Of a stretch of DNA of 64,000 nucleotides, positions 3,353 to 7,780 are shown in pieces; the first letter of the stretch is position 1, and every line of letters begins with the position of its first letter. The position numbers and the translations under genes are program-made. This DNA comes from Allobosea sp. (GTDB lineage: Bacteria; Pseudomonadota; Alphaproteobacteria; Rhizobiales; Beijerinckiaceae), in NCBI RefSeq assembly GCF_017308015.1, contig NZ_JAFKFW010000021.1, positions 28,460 through 92,459 of the forward strand, given 5' to 3'. Under the pieces are notes generated by a model, which saw only the letters and a list, made by a program, of their open reading frames with translations, ran no database searches and was not told the origin of the DNA.

Positions 3353-4150
3353 TTACCAGCCGGCGAGCACGGCGCCCTTGAAACGCTCGGCGATGAAGCT
3401 CTTGATCTCGGGGCTCTGATAGACATCGACCAGCGTCTTGACCCAGGGCTTGTCCTTGTCGGCCGCGCGGACCGCGATCAGGTTGACATAGGGGCCCTTG
3501 GCATCTTCGCGCAGGATGGCGGAAGTCGGATCGATCTTGGCATCGACGGCATAGTTGGTGTTGATCGCGGCAGCCGCGACATCGGCCAGCGAGCGCGGGG
3601 TCTGCGCGGCTTCCAGCTCGATGAGCTTGAACTTCTTCGGGTTGGCGGTGATGTCGGCGACCGTCGGCTTGAAGCCGACGCCGTCCTTCAGCTTGATCAC
3701 GCCCTTGTCCTGCAGCAGCAGCAGGATGCGGCCGCCATTGGTCGGGTCGTTCGGGATGGCGATCGTGGCGCCGTCCGGGATCTCGGCCCAGCTCTTGTAC
3801 TTCGTCGAGTAGATGCCGATCGGGAAGTTCACGGTCAGGCCGACCTTGACGATCTTGTAGCCGCGATCCTTCACCTGGTTGTCGAGATAGGGCTCGTGCT
3901 GGAAGGCGTTGGCATCGAGCTCGCCGGCGTCCAGCGCCTGGTTCGGCACGACATAATCGGAGAACTCGGTGATCTTGAGGTCGAGGCCCTTCTGCGCCGC
4001 GAGCGGCTTCACCTTCTCGAAGATCTCGGCATGCGGGCCGGGGGTGACGCCGATGCGGAGCACCTGGGCCTGGGCGAAGGCCGGGCCGGCCGCGAGGGCA
4101 AGCGAGAAGCCGGCGCCGATGGCAGCGCGGCGAGTGAAAGAGGCGGTCAT
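3353..4150 (-). CDS. metQ: Methionine ABC transporter substrate-binding protein
   Basis: A 265-residue NlpA/MetQ-type periplasmic binding protein. The start at 4150 gives MTASFTRRAAIG and a signal peptide ending AFAQA. The RR pair makes a Tat signal possible. There is no lipobox Cys, so unlike E. coli MetQ it is probably soluble. Family signatures are visible: RIGVTPGPHAEI, YVVPNQALDAGELDANAFQHEPYL and AIPNDPTNGGRILLLLQ. It is the last gene of metN-metI-metQ, 40 bp after metI, and is followed by a T-tailed terminator. The ligand is presumably methionine, which fits the SAM-II riboswitch ahead of the operon. Confidence 0.9.
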   Translation of the reverse strand: MTASFTRRAAIGAGFSLALAAGPAFAQAQVLRIGVTPGPHAEIFEKVKPLAAQKGLDLKITEFSDYVVPNQALDAGELDANAFQHEPYLDNQVKDRGYKIVKVGLTVNFPIGIYSTKYKSWAEIPDGATIAIPNDPTNGGRILLLLQDKGVIKLKDGVGFKPTVADITANPKKFKLIELEAAQTPRSLADVAAAAINTNYAVDAKIDPTSAILREDAKGPYVNLIAVRAADKDKPWVKTLVDVYQSPEIKSFIAERFKGAVLAGW

Positions 4151-4190: not shown

Positions 4191-4856
4191 TCAGGCGTGA
4201 CGCAGGCGCTTGTTGAGATGGCGGGCGAGCCGGTCACCGATGCTTTGGACGAGCTGGACGAGGACGATGAGCACGGCGACGACCACCGCCATCACGTCCG
4301 GCATGAAACGCTGGTAGCCGTAGCGGATGCCGAGATCGCCGAGCCCGCCGCCGCCGACCGCGCCGACCATGGCCGAGAAGCCGATCAGGCTGACGAGCGC
4401 CAGCGTCAGGCCGAGCACGATCGCCGGCAGGGCCTCGGGCACCAGCACCTTGCGCACGATCTGCACGGGTGTGGCGCCCATGGCGCGCGCGGCTTCGACC
4501 AGTCCCTGATCGACTTCGCGCACCGCGCCTTCGATCAGCCTTGCAATGAAGGGCGTGGAGGCGACGGTCAGCGGCACGATTGCAGCAGCCGTTCCGATCG
4601 AGGTCCCGGCGACCAGGCGCGTGAACGGGATGATCGCGACGACGAGGATGATGAAGGGTGTCGATCGCGTGGCATTGACCAGCGTGCCGAGCAGGAGGTT
4701 GGCGGCAGGAGCCGCGAACAATTCGCCGCGCTTGCTGGTGGCGAGGAAGACGCCGAGCGGCAGGCCGAACAGCGTCCCGAGCCCGGCCGCGACCGCGACC
4801 ATGGCCAGCGTGTCCAGCGTCGACTGGGCGATGAGGTTGATCAGTTCAGGAGACAT
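4191..4856 (-). CDS. metI: Methionine ABC transporter permease
   Basis: A 221-residue inner-membrane permease with about five transmembrane helices and the binding-protein-dependent transport EAA loop (EAARAMGATPVQIVRKVLVPEALP, residues ~120-143) that docks on MetN. The MGAVGGGGLGDLGIRYGYQRF segment is characteristic of MetI. The start overlaps the end of metN by 11 bp, indicating translational coupling. Confidence 0.92.
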   Translation of the reverse strand: MSPELINLIAQSTLDTLAMVAVAAGLGTLFGLPLGVFLATSKRGELFAAPAANLLLGTLVNATRSTPFIILVVAIIPFTRLVAGTSIGTAAAIVPLTVASTPFIARLIEGAVREVDQGLVEAARAMGATPVQIVRKVLVPEALPAIVLGLTLALVSLIGFSAMVGAVGGGGLGDLGIRYGYQRFMPDVMAVVVAVLIVLVQLVQSIGDRLARHLNKRLRHA

Positions 4857-5967
4857 GGCCGACGACCTCCGCCTTGAGTCCGAGGCTCTTCAGGGCGCCG
4901 AGCACGGCATCGCTTTCCGGTGCGCGCGAGGGCACCGAGACGAGCAGGCTGCCGAAGGGCTGGCCGGCGATGGCGTCGATCCGCCCGGCCAGGATGTTGA
5001 CGTCGACGCCGACGATGGCGCTCAGCCGGCTGATCACCGGGGCGGTGGCGTTCTCGCCGAGGAAGGTGATGCGCAGCACGATATTGTCGCCGGGACGTGC
5101 GTCCTTGCGGATGCGATGGGCGAGATGCTCGGGCACCTCGACGCCGGTCACCGTCTCGACGAAGCTTGCCGTCGTCGGATGCTGCGGGTTGGTGAAGACA
5201 TCGAAAGTCTCGCCCTGCTCGACGATGCGCCCGCCCTCGATCACGGCGACCCGGTCGCAGATCTCCTTGATGACGGGGATCTCGTGCGTGATCAGCAGGA
5301 TGGTGATGCCGAGCTCGCGGTTGACCTGCTTCAGCAGCGCGAGGATCGAGCGCGTCGTCTCGGGGTCGAGCGCTGAGGTCGCCTCGTCGCAGAGCAGTAC
5401 CTTCGGATCGGTTGCGAGCGCGCGGGCAATGCCGACGCGCTGCTTCTGTCCGCCCGACAGCTCGGCCGGATAGCGCGCGCTCTTGTCGGAAAGGCCGACC
5501 AGCGCAAGAAGGCGCTCGACCTTCGCCGCGATTTCGGCCTTGCCGGCGCCCGCGATCTCCAGCGGCAGCGCGACATTGTCGAAGACCGTGCGCGACGAGA
5601 GCAGGTTGAAATGCTGGAAGATCATGCCGATCCGCCGGCGCTGCTGGCGCCAGCCGGATTCGCTGAGGCCCGTAACATCCGTGCCTTCGATCAGGATGCG
5701 GCCCTCGGTGGCACGCTCCAGCCCGTTGACGAGGCGGATCAGCGTTGACTTGCCGGCGCCGGAGCGCCCGATCACGCCGAGGATGGTGCCGGCGGGCACG
5801 TCGAGATCGATGCTGGCGAGCGCGGCGACCGGCTGCTGGCCGCGGCGGCCCGGATAAGTCTTGCCGACCTGCTCGAAGCGGATGGCCGGTTTGGGCAAGG
5901 CAAGGGGCAAGGGAACGGATGTTATTCCGGCATCGAGCGTGCCGGGTCTGACGGGGGCGTTCATCAT
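4846..5967 (-). CDS. metN: Methionine ABC transporter ATP-binding protein
   Basis: A 373-residue ATPase that energises methionine import. Walker A is GRSGAGKST, the signature is LSGGQKQRVGIARAL, Walker B is VLLCDEATSALDPET, and the H-loop is LLITHE. The C-terminal ~75 residues (NIVLRITFLGENATAPVI...) form the NIL domain, which in characterised MetN proteins binds methionine and gives trans-inhibition. It carries a longer N-terminus (~28 residues) than E. coli MetN. Adjacent ATGs at 5967 and 5964 follow a GAGGAC site that overlaps the stop of the preceding 57-residue gene, so the two are probably coupled. Confidence 0.93.
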   Translation of the reverse strand: MMNAPVRPGTLDAGITSVPLPLALPKPAIRFEQVGKTYPGRRGQQPVAALASIDLDVPAGTILGVIGRSGAGKSTLIRLVNGLERATEGRILIEGTDVTGLSESGWRQQRRRIGMIFQHFNLLSSRTVFDNVALPLEIAGAGKAEIAAKVERLLALVGLSDKSARYPAELSGGQKQRVGIARALATDPKVLLCDEATSALDPETTRSILALLKQVNRELGITILLITHEIPVIKEICDRVAVIEGGRIVEQGETFDVFTNPQHPTTASFVETVTGVEVPEHLAHRIRKDARPGDNIVLRITFLGENATAPVISRLSAIVGVDVNILAGRIDAIAGQPFGSLLVSVPSRAPESDAVLGALKSLGLKAEVVGHVS

Positions 5968-5971
5968 GTCC

Positions 5972-6145
5972 TCAGAAATGCGTGTGGCAGGACCAGTGGG
6001 CGATGCCGAGCTGCTCGATGGTCACGTCATGGACCGAGCGGCGCTGGTCGTCCGCGGTCGCGGCGTCGAGCGGGTCGAAACTGGCGGGAACGGCCTCGGC
6101 GAACCAGTTCGCGATGCCGTTCCAGAGGGTGGAGAGGAGCCGCAT
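5972..6145 (-). CDS. Small hypothetical protein directly upstream of metN
   Basis: A 57-residue ORF (begins MRLLSTLWNGIANWF, ends AHWSCHTHF). It fills the space between the 82-residue gene (7 bp gap) and metN (4 bp gap), all on the same strand. Codon use resembles its neighbours and its stop codon lies inside the metN ribosome-binding site. An amphipathic tryptophan-rich N-terminus is followed by an acidic middle. I do not recognise the family. Position alone suggests a role linked to methionine uptake or its coupling. Confidence 0.6.
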   Translation of the reverse strand: MRLLSTLWNGIANWFAEAVPASFDPLDAATADDQRRSVHDVTIEQLGIAHWSCHTHF

Positions 6146-6152
6146 CGCCGCC

Positions 6153-6401
6153 TCACGAAGCCAGCAGCAGAGGCGAGCGCCGCAGCGTGCGGGAGAGCCG
6201 GCGTGCGGCGGTCTCGGCGGCGCCGGGCGTCGCGAAGCGCTGGCCGTCCAGCGCCCGGAAGGCGGCGGAGGCCGAGACGAAGGTGAAGTCGCGCTCGTCG
6301 GAGCGGCGGCTCACGAGCCCGATCTGGGCCTCGCCGAGCTCGATGACATAGGCTTGCTGCGCCGGGCGGGCCCGGCCGGGAAGAGACTGAATCTGGGACA
6401 T
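6153..6401 (-). CDS. Small hypothetical protein in the metNIQ operon
   Basis: An 82-residue protein starting at 6401 (MSQIQSLPGRARPAQ) after an AAAGG ribosome-binding site. It has a short beta-strand-rich centre (QAYVIELGEAQIGLVSRR, DFTFVSASAAFRALDG) and a basic C-terminus (AARRLSRTLRRSP). No known domain is recognised. The arrangement leader ORF - 82 aa - 57 aa - metN - metI - metQ on one strand suggests one transcription unit under the upstream riboswitch. Confidence 0.6.
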   Translation of the reverse strand: MSQIQSLPGRARPAQQAYVIELGEAQIGLVSRRSDERDFTFVSASAAFRALDGQRFATPGAAETAARRLSRTLRRSPLLLAS

Positions 6402-6474
6402 GAAACTGCCTTTCGCCGCTCGGGCGGCGTTCGTCGAAACGATCGTTAGAGGATGGCCTTTCGGCCTCGCGATC

Positions 6475-6543
6475 TCAGCGTCGACAGCGGCAGGACATTC
6501 GGCGGAAGCGGGTCTGGCTTCGGCTCGTTCCGGCAATGGTCAT
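6475..6543 (-). CDS. 22-residue leader ORF downstream of SAM-II riboswitch
   Basis: A 22-codon ORF starting at 6543 behind an excellent GAGGAG site (6550-6555, 6-nt spacing). It encodes MTIAGTSRSQTRF followed by a strongly basic, cysteine-containing end (RRMSCRCRR). It sits between the SAM-II element and the first structural gene and is followed by small hairpins (AGGCCGAAAGGCC; GCCGCCCGAGCGGC). It could be a regulatory leader peptide, for example a sensor of Cys or Arg charging, or simply the first translated ORF that the riboswitch gates. Evidence for translation is the ribosome-binding site only. Confidence 0.5.
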   Translation of the reverse strand: MTIAGTSRSQTRFRRMSCRCRR

Positions 6544-6580
6544 GTCAGTCTCCTCGATCTGGAGCCCACGACCCGGTCGT

Positions 6581-6632
6581 GGCGCTTTAGCGTTTGGTGA
6601 CGCGGCGCAAGCTGCTGCTCAAATCTCCGCGG
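6581..6632 (-). promoter_or_regulatory. SAM-II riboswitch upstream of metNIQ
   Basis: On the minus strand the leader shows the SAM-II (metA-motif) pattern. A short P1 helix CGCGG (6627-6631) / CCGCG (6601-6605) encloses loop elements GATTTGAGC and CTTGC. These are followed by CGTCACCAAA and the invariant 3' GCTAAA block (6585-6595 region). SAM-II aptamers are alphaproteobacterial S-adenosylmethionine sensors usually found ahead of methionine biosynthesis genes. A 7-bp hairpin (6566-6582) overlaps the aptamer's 3' edge and lies just ahead of the GAGGAG site of the leader ORF, consistent with translational control. Identification is by eye from the motif, not from a covariance model. Confidence 0.7.
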
Positions 6633-6659
6633 CTCCCCGATCGCTCCGGGAACACCTGC

Positions 6660-6688
6660 AATCTGATCAAGATCGTCCTCTTTGTCAA
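6660..6688 (-). promoter_or_regulatory. Candidate promoter for the SAM-II/metNIQ transcript
   Basis: On the minus strand a perfect -35 TTGACA (6688-6683) is separated by 17 bp from a -10-like CAGATT (6665-6660). Transcription would begin near 6653, placing the complete SAM-II element in the first ~75 nt of the transcript. Confidence 0.45.
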
Positions 6689-6813
6689 CCGGTTCGTTCT
6701 TTTGAAGAAACGGGGCGGCAGAGAAGGATTTTCTCCGCGTGCTCTTTGCGCCTCGCCAAGGATGCGGCAATGCGCGGCTTGACGAAGCCGGGGAAGCGGG
6801 GCCATCTGCGGCC

Positions 6814-7300: not shown

Positions 7301-7780
7301 ATGAAGCTTTCCTATTCGCTCGCCGCCGTGGCTCTCGTGCTCTCGGCCGGCTTCGCAACGGCCCATGAGTTCAAGGCCGGCCCGCTCAAGATCGGCCATC
7401 CCTGGTCGCGTGCCACGCCGGCCGGCGCCAAGGTCGGCGGCGGCTATCTCTCGATCGAGAACACCGGCACGACCGTCGACCGTCTGGTCTCGGTTTCGGT
7501 GCCCTTCGCAGGCCGTTCCGAAATCCATGAAATGGCGGTCAAGGACGGCATCATGACGATGCGGCCCCTGGACAATGGCATCGAGCTGCCGGCCGGAACG
7601 AAGGTCGAGTTCAAGCCGGGCGGCTATCACATCATGTTCATGGAGCTGAAGCAGCAGCTCAAGCAGGGCGAGATGATGAAGGGCACGCTGACCTTCGAGA
7701 AGGCCGGGACCGTCGATGTCGAGTTCAAGGTCGACGCAATCGCGGCCAAGGGCAGCGAGGGCGAGCACAAGGGGCACTGA
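7301..7780 (+). CDS. PCuAC-type periplasmic copper chaperone
   Basis: A 159-residue exported protein with a signal peptide (residues ~1-21, ending GFATA). The PCu(A)C domain is clear: HPWSRATPAGAKVGGGYLSIENTG, then the copper-binding His/Met set EIHEMAVKDGIMTMRPL and GGYHIMFMELKQQLKQGE. Family members deliver Cu(I) to the CuA or CuB site of cytochrome oxidase. A His-containing tail (EGEHKGH) adds possible metal ligands. It stands behind the HCKGCP-motif gene on the same strand, suggesting a two-gene copper unit. Confidence 0.88.
   Translation: MKLSYSLAAVALVLSAGFATAHEFKAGPLKIGHPWSRATPAGAKVGGGYLSIENTGTTVDRLVSVSVPFAGRSEIHEMAVKDGIMTMRPLDNGIELPAGTKVEFKPGGYHIMFMELKQQLKQGEMMKGTLTFEKAGTVDVEFKVDAIAAKGSEGEHKGH

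Follow-up and report, generated by a model that had tools for sequence, protein, structure and literature searches.

The metNIQ operon of Allobosea sp. raises the question of what a riboswitch-like element in its leader senses, and which reading frame that element gates. The operon lies on the minus strand of the 64,000-nt stretch of DNA analyzed here (the window; contig NZ_JAFKFW010000021.1). SAM-II riboswitches (Rfam RF00521) were first reported in PMC1273637 and are exemplified by metA/metZ of S. meliloti (PMC9373788). A reading of this DNA from the sequence alone had described a SAM-II signature in the metNIQ leader, and every element that it named was found at its claimed position on the minus strand. 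The proposed arrangement, in which a SAM-II-type aptamer immediately precedes a 22-codon leader open reading frame (ORF) upstream of metNIQ, was likewise borne out (Table 1). That reading overlooked the Cys codons of the leader ORF, the presence of two further ORFs (ORF2 and ORF3) before metN, and the potential pairing of the 3' arm of the leader hairpin with the Shine-Dalgarno sequence (SD) and AUG; as an overall interpretation it is supported in part.

A SAM-II-type aptamer in the metNIQ leader

All Rfam families were scanned over window positions 6300-6800 with a limiting E-value of 10. The best match was RF00521 (SAM_alpha, SAM-II), with 23.0 bits and an E-value of 0.005 (4227 families, 501 nt), which is more than chance would provide. 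The anticipated match to this family is thus present but sub-threshold (gathering score 36), as the element belongs to a subtype that Rfam fails to capture. The SAM-II long loop family (RF01726) scored 17.6 bits (E = 0.99) versus a gathering score of 44 bits, the SAM-V family model yielded no match at E ≤ 10 in 6300-6800, and a scan of the window at Rfam gathering thresholds left this region without a match, returning only a tRNA elsewhere. When RF00521 was searched across the whole genome, the window copy ranked second (E = 0.0117), behind a match of 33.3 bits and ahead of one with an E-value of 8.9. By score, the window element is not a member of RF00521; judged by its sequence, it is a subtype that shares the SAM-II core. 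The top-ranking match (G000:C33:3631-3722; L001, L221) is a second, metX-like SAM-II element of the same genome, and precedes what looks like an ORF for a sulfonate-type binding protein and a permease.

Table 1. Features of the metNIQ leader and operon, in window coordinates.
Feature	Position	Strand	Basis or remark
Leader promoter, -35-like TTGACA	6683..6688	-	read in sequence
P1 stem-loop of SAM-II-type aptamer	6601..6631	-	RF00521, 23.0 bits; two-sided changes
P1 arms, CGCGG and CCGCG	6631-6627 and 6605-6601	-	
GATTT	6625-6621	-	L1 UUU at 6623-6621
CTTGC (CUUGC)	6611-6607	-	
L3, UCACCAAAC	6600-6592	-	9 nt
Pseudoknot P2, 3' strand, GCUAAAGCGC	6591-6582	-	pocket residues; covariation
GCTAAA	6591-6586	-	
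Hairpin 1, CCACGACCGGGTCGTGG (CCACGA/TCGTGG)	6582-6566	-	two-sided changes
Predicted alternative start-site fold	6536..6573	-	energies, bistability, complementarity
SD of leader ORF, AGGAG	6554-6550	-	
AUG of leader ORF	6543-6541	-	
Leader ORF, MTIAGTSRSQTRFRRMSCRCRR	6475-6543	-	22 codons and stop; Cys at codons 18 and 20
ORF2	6153-6401	-	82 aa; conserved small protein
ORF3	5972-6145	-	57 aa
metN	4846..5967	-	ABC_tran and NIL domains; best NCBIfam model ABC_MetN, score under its cut-off
metI	4191..4856	-	BPD_transp_1; NCBIfam MetI above cut-off
metQ	3353..4150	-	NlpA lipoprotein family; MetQ/NlpA subfamily above cut-off

The TTGACA hexamer is kept across a 19-sequence alignment of the Bosea group, and among the matches listed, 71 of 91 dereplicated non-sphingomonad elements have a TTGAC at a distance of 69-90 nt upstream from the core. 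The candidate -10 element, CAGATT, located 17 nt downstream of TTGACA, is not convincing, and a consensus promoter scan of the window leader gave no match. Just upstream of the -35 element, at about 6713-6695 on the minus strand, lies a palindrome-like sequence, CGTTTCTTCAAAAGAACG, that is conserved in the Bosea group and is possibly a transcription-factor site; several Microvirga copies carry GTTCT..AGAAC at a similar place. A divergent ORF of 159 aa lies at 7301-7780 on the plus strand and resembles a periplasmic copper chaperone of the PCuAC type.

Spread and conservation of the subtype

The reach of the element beyond this genome was assessed with sequence, pattern and covariance models. 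A blastn search of plasmids with the 341-nt leader returned 23 records, 14 of them from Azospirillum, and the 20 that were listed aligned over 16-22% of the query at 83-93% identity. A pattern scan of genome contigs identified at least 119 stretches; adding the window and seven plasmid loci to the listed pattern matches gave 128 elements that were read, or 111 after dereplication. Hosts among the matches listed include Bosea, Microvirga, Chelatococcus, Kaistia, Azospirillum, Niveispirillum, Rhodopseudomonas and Novosphingobium. A covariance model of the subtype, built from 56 seed sequences that include the window, scored 86.2 bits at the window, the top of its genome, where the next match reached 28.4 bits. 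At E ≤ 0.001 the model matched 63 genomes out of 297 in the order and 91 out of 385 in the class (Alphaproteobacteria), own genome included, with a metX-like SAM-II element ("type A") among the weakest matches; tightening the limit to E ≤ 1e-7 left 51 of 297 and 67 of 385, respectively. Rfam at its own threshold recovered none of the subtype elements in 17 loci, its sole SAM_alpha match there being a classic copy elsewhere in L122. Used independently of the subtype model, RF00521 itself gave sub-threshold scores of 24.7-29.0 bits at seven copies of the subtype ("type B") from related genomes (L027-L033). On this sequence evidence, the element belongs to a large SAM-II subtype missed by Rfam and is not a stray match.

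Structural conservation was evaluated on an alignment of 95 model-found matches, comprising 93 type B and 2 type A rows. Two-sided changes were observed at three of the five P1 pairs and at all six pairs of hairpin 1 (two of five and five of six, respectively, for the type B rows alone), and the covariation values of both helices were reached by none of 500 shuffles. The window and 91 of the 93 type B rows carry all 13 SAM-II pocket residues listed in the available part of PMC3764141, although most of these residues belong to the seed pattern, so that within the seeds only U10-12 provides an unforced test. P2 is extended around a bulged A17 by C16-G50 and G15-C51, which are paired in 89 and 86 of 92 elements and covary above 1000 shuffles; the inner P2 pairs hardly vary and carry little information. 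One further P2 pair, 14-52, was rejected (paired in 35 of 92, versus 36.8 in shuffles). Comparison among relatives thereby demonstrates an aptamer core with its pocket residues, and the hairpin adjoining it. Hairpin 1 follows P2 without a spacer in the alignments, and in the window C6582 is both the last base of P2 and the first base of hairpin 1. L3 is mostly 9 nt long in the subtype versus 11 nt in most classic copies.

The subtype shares with SAM-II its P1 stem and pseudoknot P2, pocket residues, alphaproteobacterial hosts and the sulfur or methionine genes found downstream. It differs from RF00521 in scoring below the cut-off, in its mostly 9-nt L3, in the extension of P2 around a bulged A, in the hairpin intervening between aptamer and SD, and in its first target, which is mostly a Cys-codon leader ORF. 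Seven loci (L223-L229) have tandem leaders, with a metX-like type A SAM-II first, then an apparent intrinsic terminator, then the subtype; the ORFs downstream appear by eye to be metY-like, OsmC-like, CysG-like and sulfite-reductase-like.

Calling of downstream genes relied on ORF length and GC3, and cluster names derive from a single representative each; counts are therefore approximate. The sequence-only reading had considered a transporter target atypical for SAM-II, but for the subtype it is usual: among the matches listed, the first sizeable gene downstream of the 111 dereplicated elements belongs to a MetN-type cluster in 20 cases and to a MetQ cluster in 15. Smaller clusters comprise NMT1-type and SBP_bac_11 binding proteins, TctC, TauD, serine acetyltransferase (CysE), CysG and a Cys/Met PLP enzyme, and some copies of the subtype lie directly ahead of a structural gene. 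In sphingomonads, the downstream genes include TonB receptors (7) and glutamine amidotransferase (5), while EAL/GGDEF (4), Na/H exchanger and release factor genes are either unrelated or located beyond the true target. No call was obtained for 15 of the 111 first genes. A sulfur-related gene context is hence frequent by comparison, encompassing about half of the first genes (54 of 111) when binding proteins for likely sulfur compounds are counted.

ORF2 accompanies 72 of 108 non-sphingomonad pattern elements among the matches listed, and is present in 52 of 104 model-found loci. A match to its family is present in 53 of 199 genomes of the order, and 17 of 30 ORF2 loci that were fetched also contain a match to the subtype model. 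The window protein has no Pfam or NCBIfam match, and DUF6894 is touched by 3 of 69 ORF2 relatives. Its predicted fold, a confident model (pLDDT 87) of three strands and a long helix, found no solved structure at E ≤ 0.001, the best being YkuJ (E = 0.85). ORF3, which ends in EQLGIAHWSCHTHF, is kept between ORF2 and metN in the Bosea group; tblastn at E ≤ 1e-3 located it in ten other loci, all from that group.

The leader start site and its cysteine codons

A link between the hairpin and ribosome access had been suggested from the sequence, and it is supported here by the capacity of the 3' arm of hairpin 1 to pair with the start site of the leader ORF. In the alternative fold this arm, together with CUCC, pairs with the SD and the AUG. 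Predicted energies for the window are -15.9 kcal/mol for the fold with a hidden start site and -15.2 kcal/mol when hairpin 1 is enforced. The predicted gap between both folds has a median of 0.3 kcal/mol across 71 elements, versus 4.4 kcal/mol after shuffling of the downstream part (p = 4e-17), and the SD-AUG region is predicted to be paired at 47% with hairpin 1 and 63% without it. The duplex between the 3' arm and the SD-AUG region averages -13.6 kcal/mol, versus -10.3 kcal/mol in shuffles (68 elements, p = 7e-10). Swapping partners between elements gives a mean of -12.6 kcal/mol, and the own partner is stronger in 41 of 68, which represents a slight gain (p = 0.01). According to these folding models, the start-site fold competes with hairpin 1 on near-isoenergetic terms, a bistability that comparison across elements corroborates. 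By eye, several copies located directly before structural genes show similar start-site complementarity. One Bosea metagenome-assembled genome (L111) carries a copy without hairpin 1, in which the SD lies inside the P2 strand.

The leader ORF of the window carries CRC close to its end. Leaders were defined by the first SD-preceded ATG, using a permissive SD list, with a length of up to 60 aa, and were identified in 76 of 91 dereplicated non-sphingomonad elements among the matches listed; the remaining 15 lack one. Among these same matches, 73 of the 76 leaders encode Cys and 48 a CC or CxC, with Cys most frequently at the third- or fourth-last position. The leaders total 178 Cys, versus 58 ± 7 in composition shuffles, and Cys makes up 9.9% of the leader frame, compared with 5.1% and 1.9% of the two alternative frames of the same DNA. 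For control small ORFs from the same loci (n = 375), 51% contain Cys and 10% CC or CxC. In model-found loci, ATG leaders of 5-60 aa occur in 69 of 104; after deduplication 58 are left, with Cys in 52 and CC or CxC in 25 (p = 1e-8 versus controls). Base composition as the origin of the Cys codons is ruled out by the shuffles and the control ORFs, and the enrichment is established by this comparison. Cys runs are shared by otherwise unlike contexts (CCCP, LCCRCRRA, CCGCCCC). At 21 classic or metX-like SAM-II loci, no CC or CxC leader was found, although a similar rule yielded an ORF of any kind at just 5 of them. Sphingomonad copies mostly lack Cys (present in 4 of 16, among the matches listed). 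In four of them (L067, L086, L134, L147) the subtype is followed, in place of a Cys leader, by an ORF of 53-61 aa with PLPHPSWR or PLPHSSWR and DFW.RLG motifs, ahead of a glutamine amidotransferase-cluster gene.

The 15 Bosea-group leaders measured share a length of 69 nt. Variability does not differ among their codon positions, giving no signal of selection on the peptide outside its Cys end, and their 3' end is conserved at all three positions. Nothing terminator-like was detected in 5900-6800, and structure around the leader stop is weak (mean z -0.72, 73 leaders). A clear attenuator structure downstream of the leader was looked for in relatives and was not found. The locus presents the clustered Cys codons of a ribosome-mediated cysteine attenuator, while no terminator or antiterminator was found after them. 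Two loci carry a Cys leader ahead of ORF2 outside the usual arrangement: a CRC leader, MRRTRCRCRASR, with no match to the aptamer model (L273), and MTICSMRLFTSRCCCSCCR, with a degenerate aptamer (L290). The occurrence of Cys leaders in such settings supports two separable modules.

A two-stage model and its rivals

The reading that we favor, and consider an evenly balanced proposition, is that the metNIQ leader is a two-stage regulator in which SAM decides whether ribosomes can reach a leader ORF that senses cysteine. In the first stage, the SAM-II-type aptamer leads straight into hairpin 1. We infer that SAM binds, and that it most likely stabilizes or extends P2, which would weaken hairpin 1 and hide the leader start site; since P2 and hairpin 1 share C6582, SAM most likely tips a near-balanced RNA toward the hidden start site. 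When SAM is low, a ribosome would load on the leader ORF. In the second stage, scarcity of charged tRNA-Cys would stall this ribosome at the Cys codons just before the stop, and ORF2, ORF3 and metNIQ would be expressed only if SAM and cysteine are both low. The leader would otherwise default to OFF, perhaps through Rho-dependent termination or loss of coupled translation. The broader proposal, that this is a widespread alphaproteobacterial gate which sets sulfur uptake and assimilation by computing "low SAM and low cysteine" (or NAND, should the sign be reversed), has in our view equal chances of being right or wrong. Several observations count against the two-stage model: the sub-cut-off Rfam score, the leaderless elements, the sphingomonad copies mostly devoid of Cys, the copies before structural genes, the missing codon-position signal and terminator, the weak structure at the stop, the slight gain from own-partner complementarity, and the roughly half of first genes that are not clearly related to sulfur.

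The main rival reverses the sign of the switch. SAM-bound P2 would stack on hairpin 1 and stabilize it, opening the leader start site, and the translated leader would repress the operon unless stalled at Cys, with OFF reached only when SAM and cysteine are both high (NAND-like). The spacer-free junction and the single base that P2 and hairpin 1 have in common suit such stacking, and we regard this sign as unlikely, though still a serious contender: position 51 varies with both of its partners (15-51; 69-115), which suits competition, and copies ahead of structural genes such as cysG and metY would become SAM-induced. The hairpin-less L111 copy, with its SD in the P2 strand, has the canonical OFF layout, but it comes from a metagenome-assembled genome.

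Other rivals question one module or the element itself. The leader ORF might be no cysteine sensor but only a site for translation coupling or loading, leaving regulation to the aptamer and the Cys codons to a constraint at the nucleotide level; the conservation of the Bosea-group 3' end at all three codon positions would fit, yet the recurrence of Cys runs in unrelated contexts and the in-frame excess of Cys make this improbable. A ligand shifted to, for instance, another sulfur metabolite, with the SAM-II fold kept, would accommodate the shorter L3 and would have the seven tandem leaders read two ligands. It is quite improbable given the complete set of pocket residues in nearly all type B rows, the 8-nt L3 of two classic members above the RF00521 cut-off (L019, L020), and the tandem SAM-II leaders with mixed platforms already known from the available text of PMC9481103. 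The window copy might also be a look-alike without function, left by decay or arisen by chance, as its sub-threshold Rfam score could suggest; this is barely credible: its score against its own subtype (of which it is one seed) is the top of the genome, and aptamer, hairpin, start-site fold and leader are all intact and conserved in the Bosea group.

The components of the two-stage model have known counterparts. Tandem and bi-mechanism leaders (SAM-II/SAM-II and SAM-II/SAM-V) are described in the available portions of PMC9481103 and PMC11508383, and the seven loci with a metX-like SAM-II and terminator upstream of the subtype resemble them; unlike the subtype, the tandem leaders are presented in those portions without a leader peptide. 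The available text of the tandem-riboswitch review (PMC9481103) treats aptamer-aptamer and T-box combinations, and contains no instance of the terms uORF, leader peptide or attenuat. As far as the accessible part of PMC8632094 details, uORFC-8-2, the cysS attenuator of Rhodobacterales, is also a short Cys-codon ORF ahead of a Cys-related gene in Alphaproteobacteria, but has an intrinsic terminator and no described SAM aptamer, whereas no terminator was found in the window leader. Mycobacterial polycysteine short ORFs, cysteine-responsive operon attenuators (Canestrari et al. 2020, cited in PMC9094748), are similar in their Cys codons, but in the part of PMC9094748 available they are leaderless, mycobacterial and mentioned with no riboswitch. 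The accessible, mainly open-licence literature yielded no description of a SAM-II element coupled to a Cys leader, nor of one preceding metNIQ. Cysteine attenuators and SAM-II switches are each known; what appears new is their combination.

The subtype adds many SAM-II-like elements under the Rfam threshold, and gives a regulatory context to ORF2, an unannotated small-protein family. SAM and cysteine are readouts of different points in sulfur metabolism. If the two-stage model is true, the leader would be a two-input device joining a small-molecule aptamer to a codon-based sensor, with a riboswitch feeding a ribosome-mediated attenuator, and many Alphaproteobacteria could set sulfur uptake by RNA alone.
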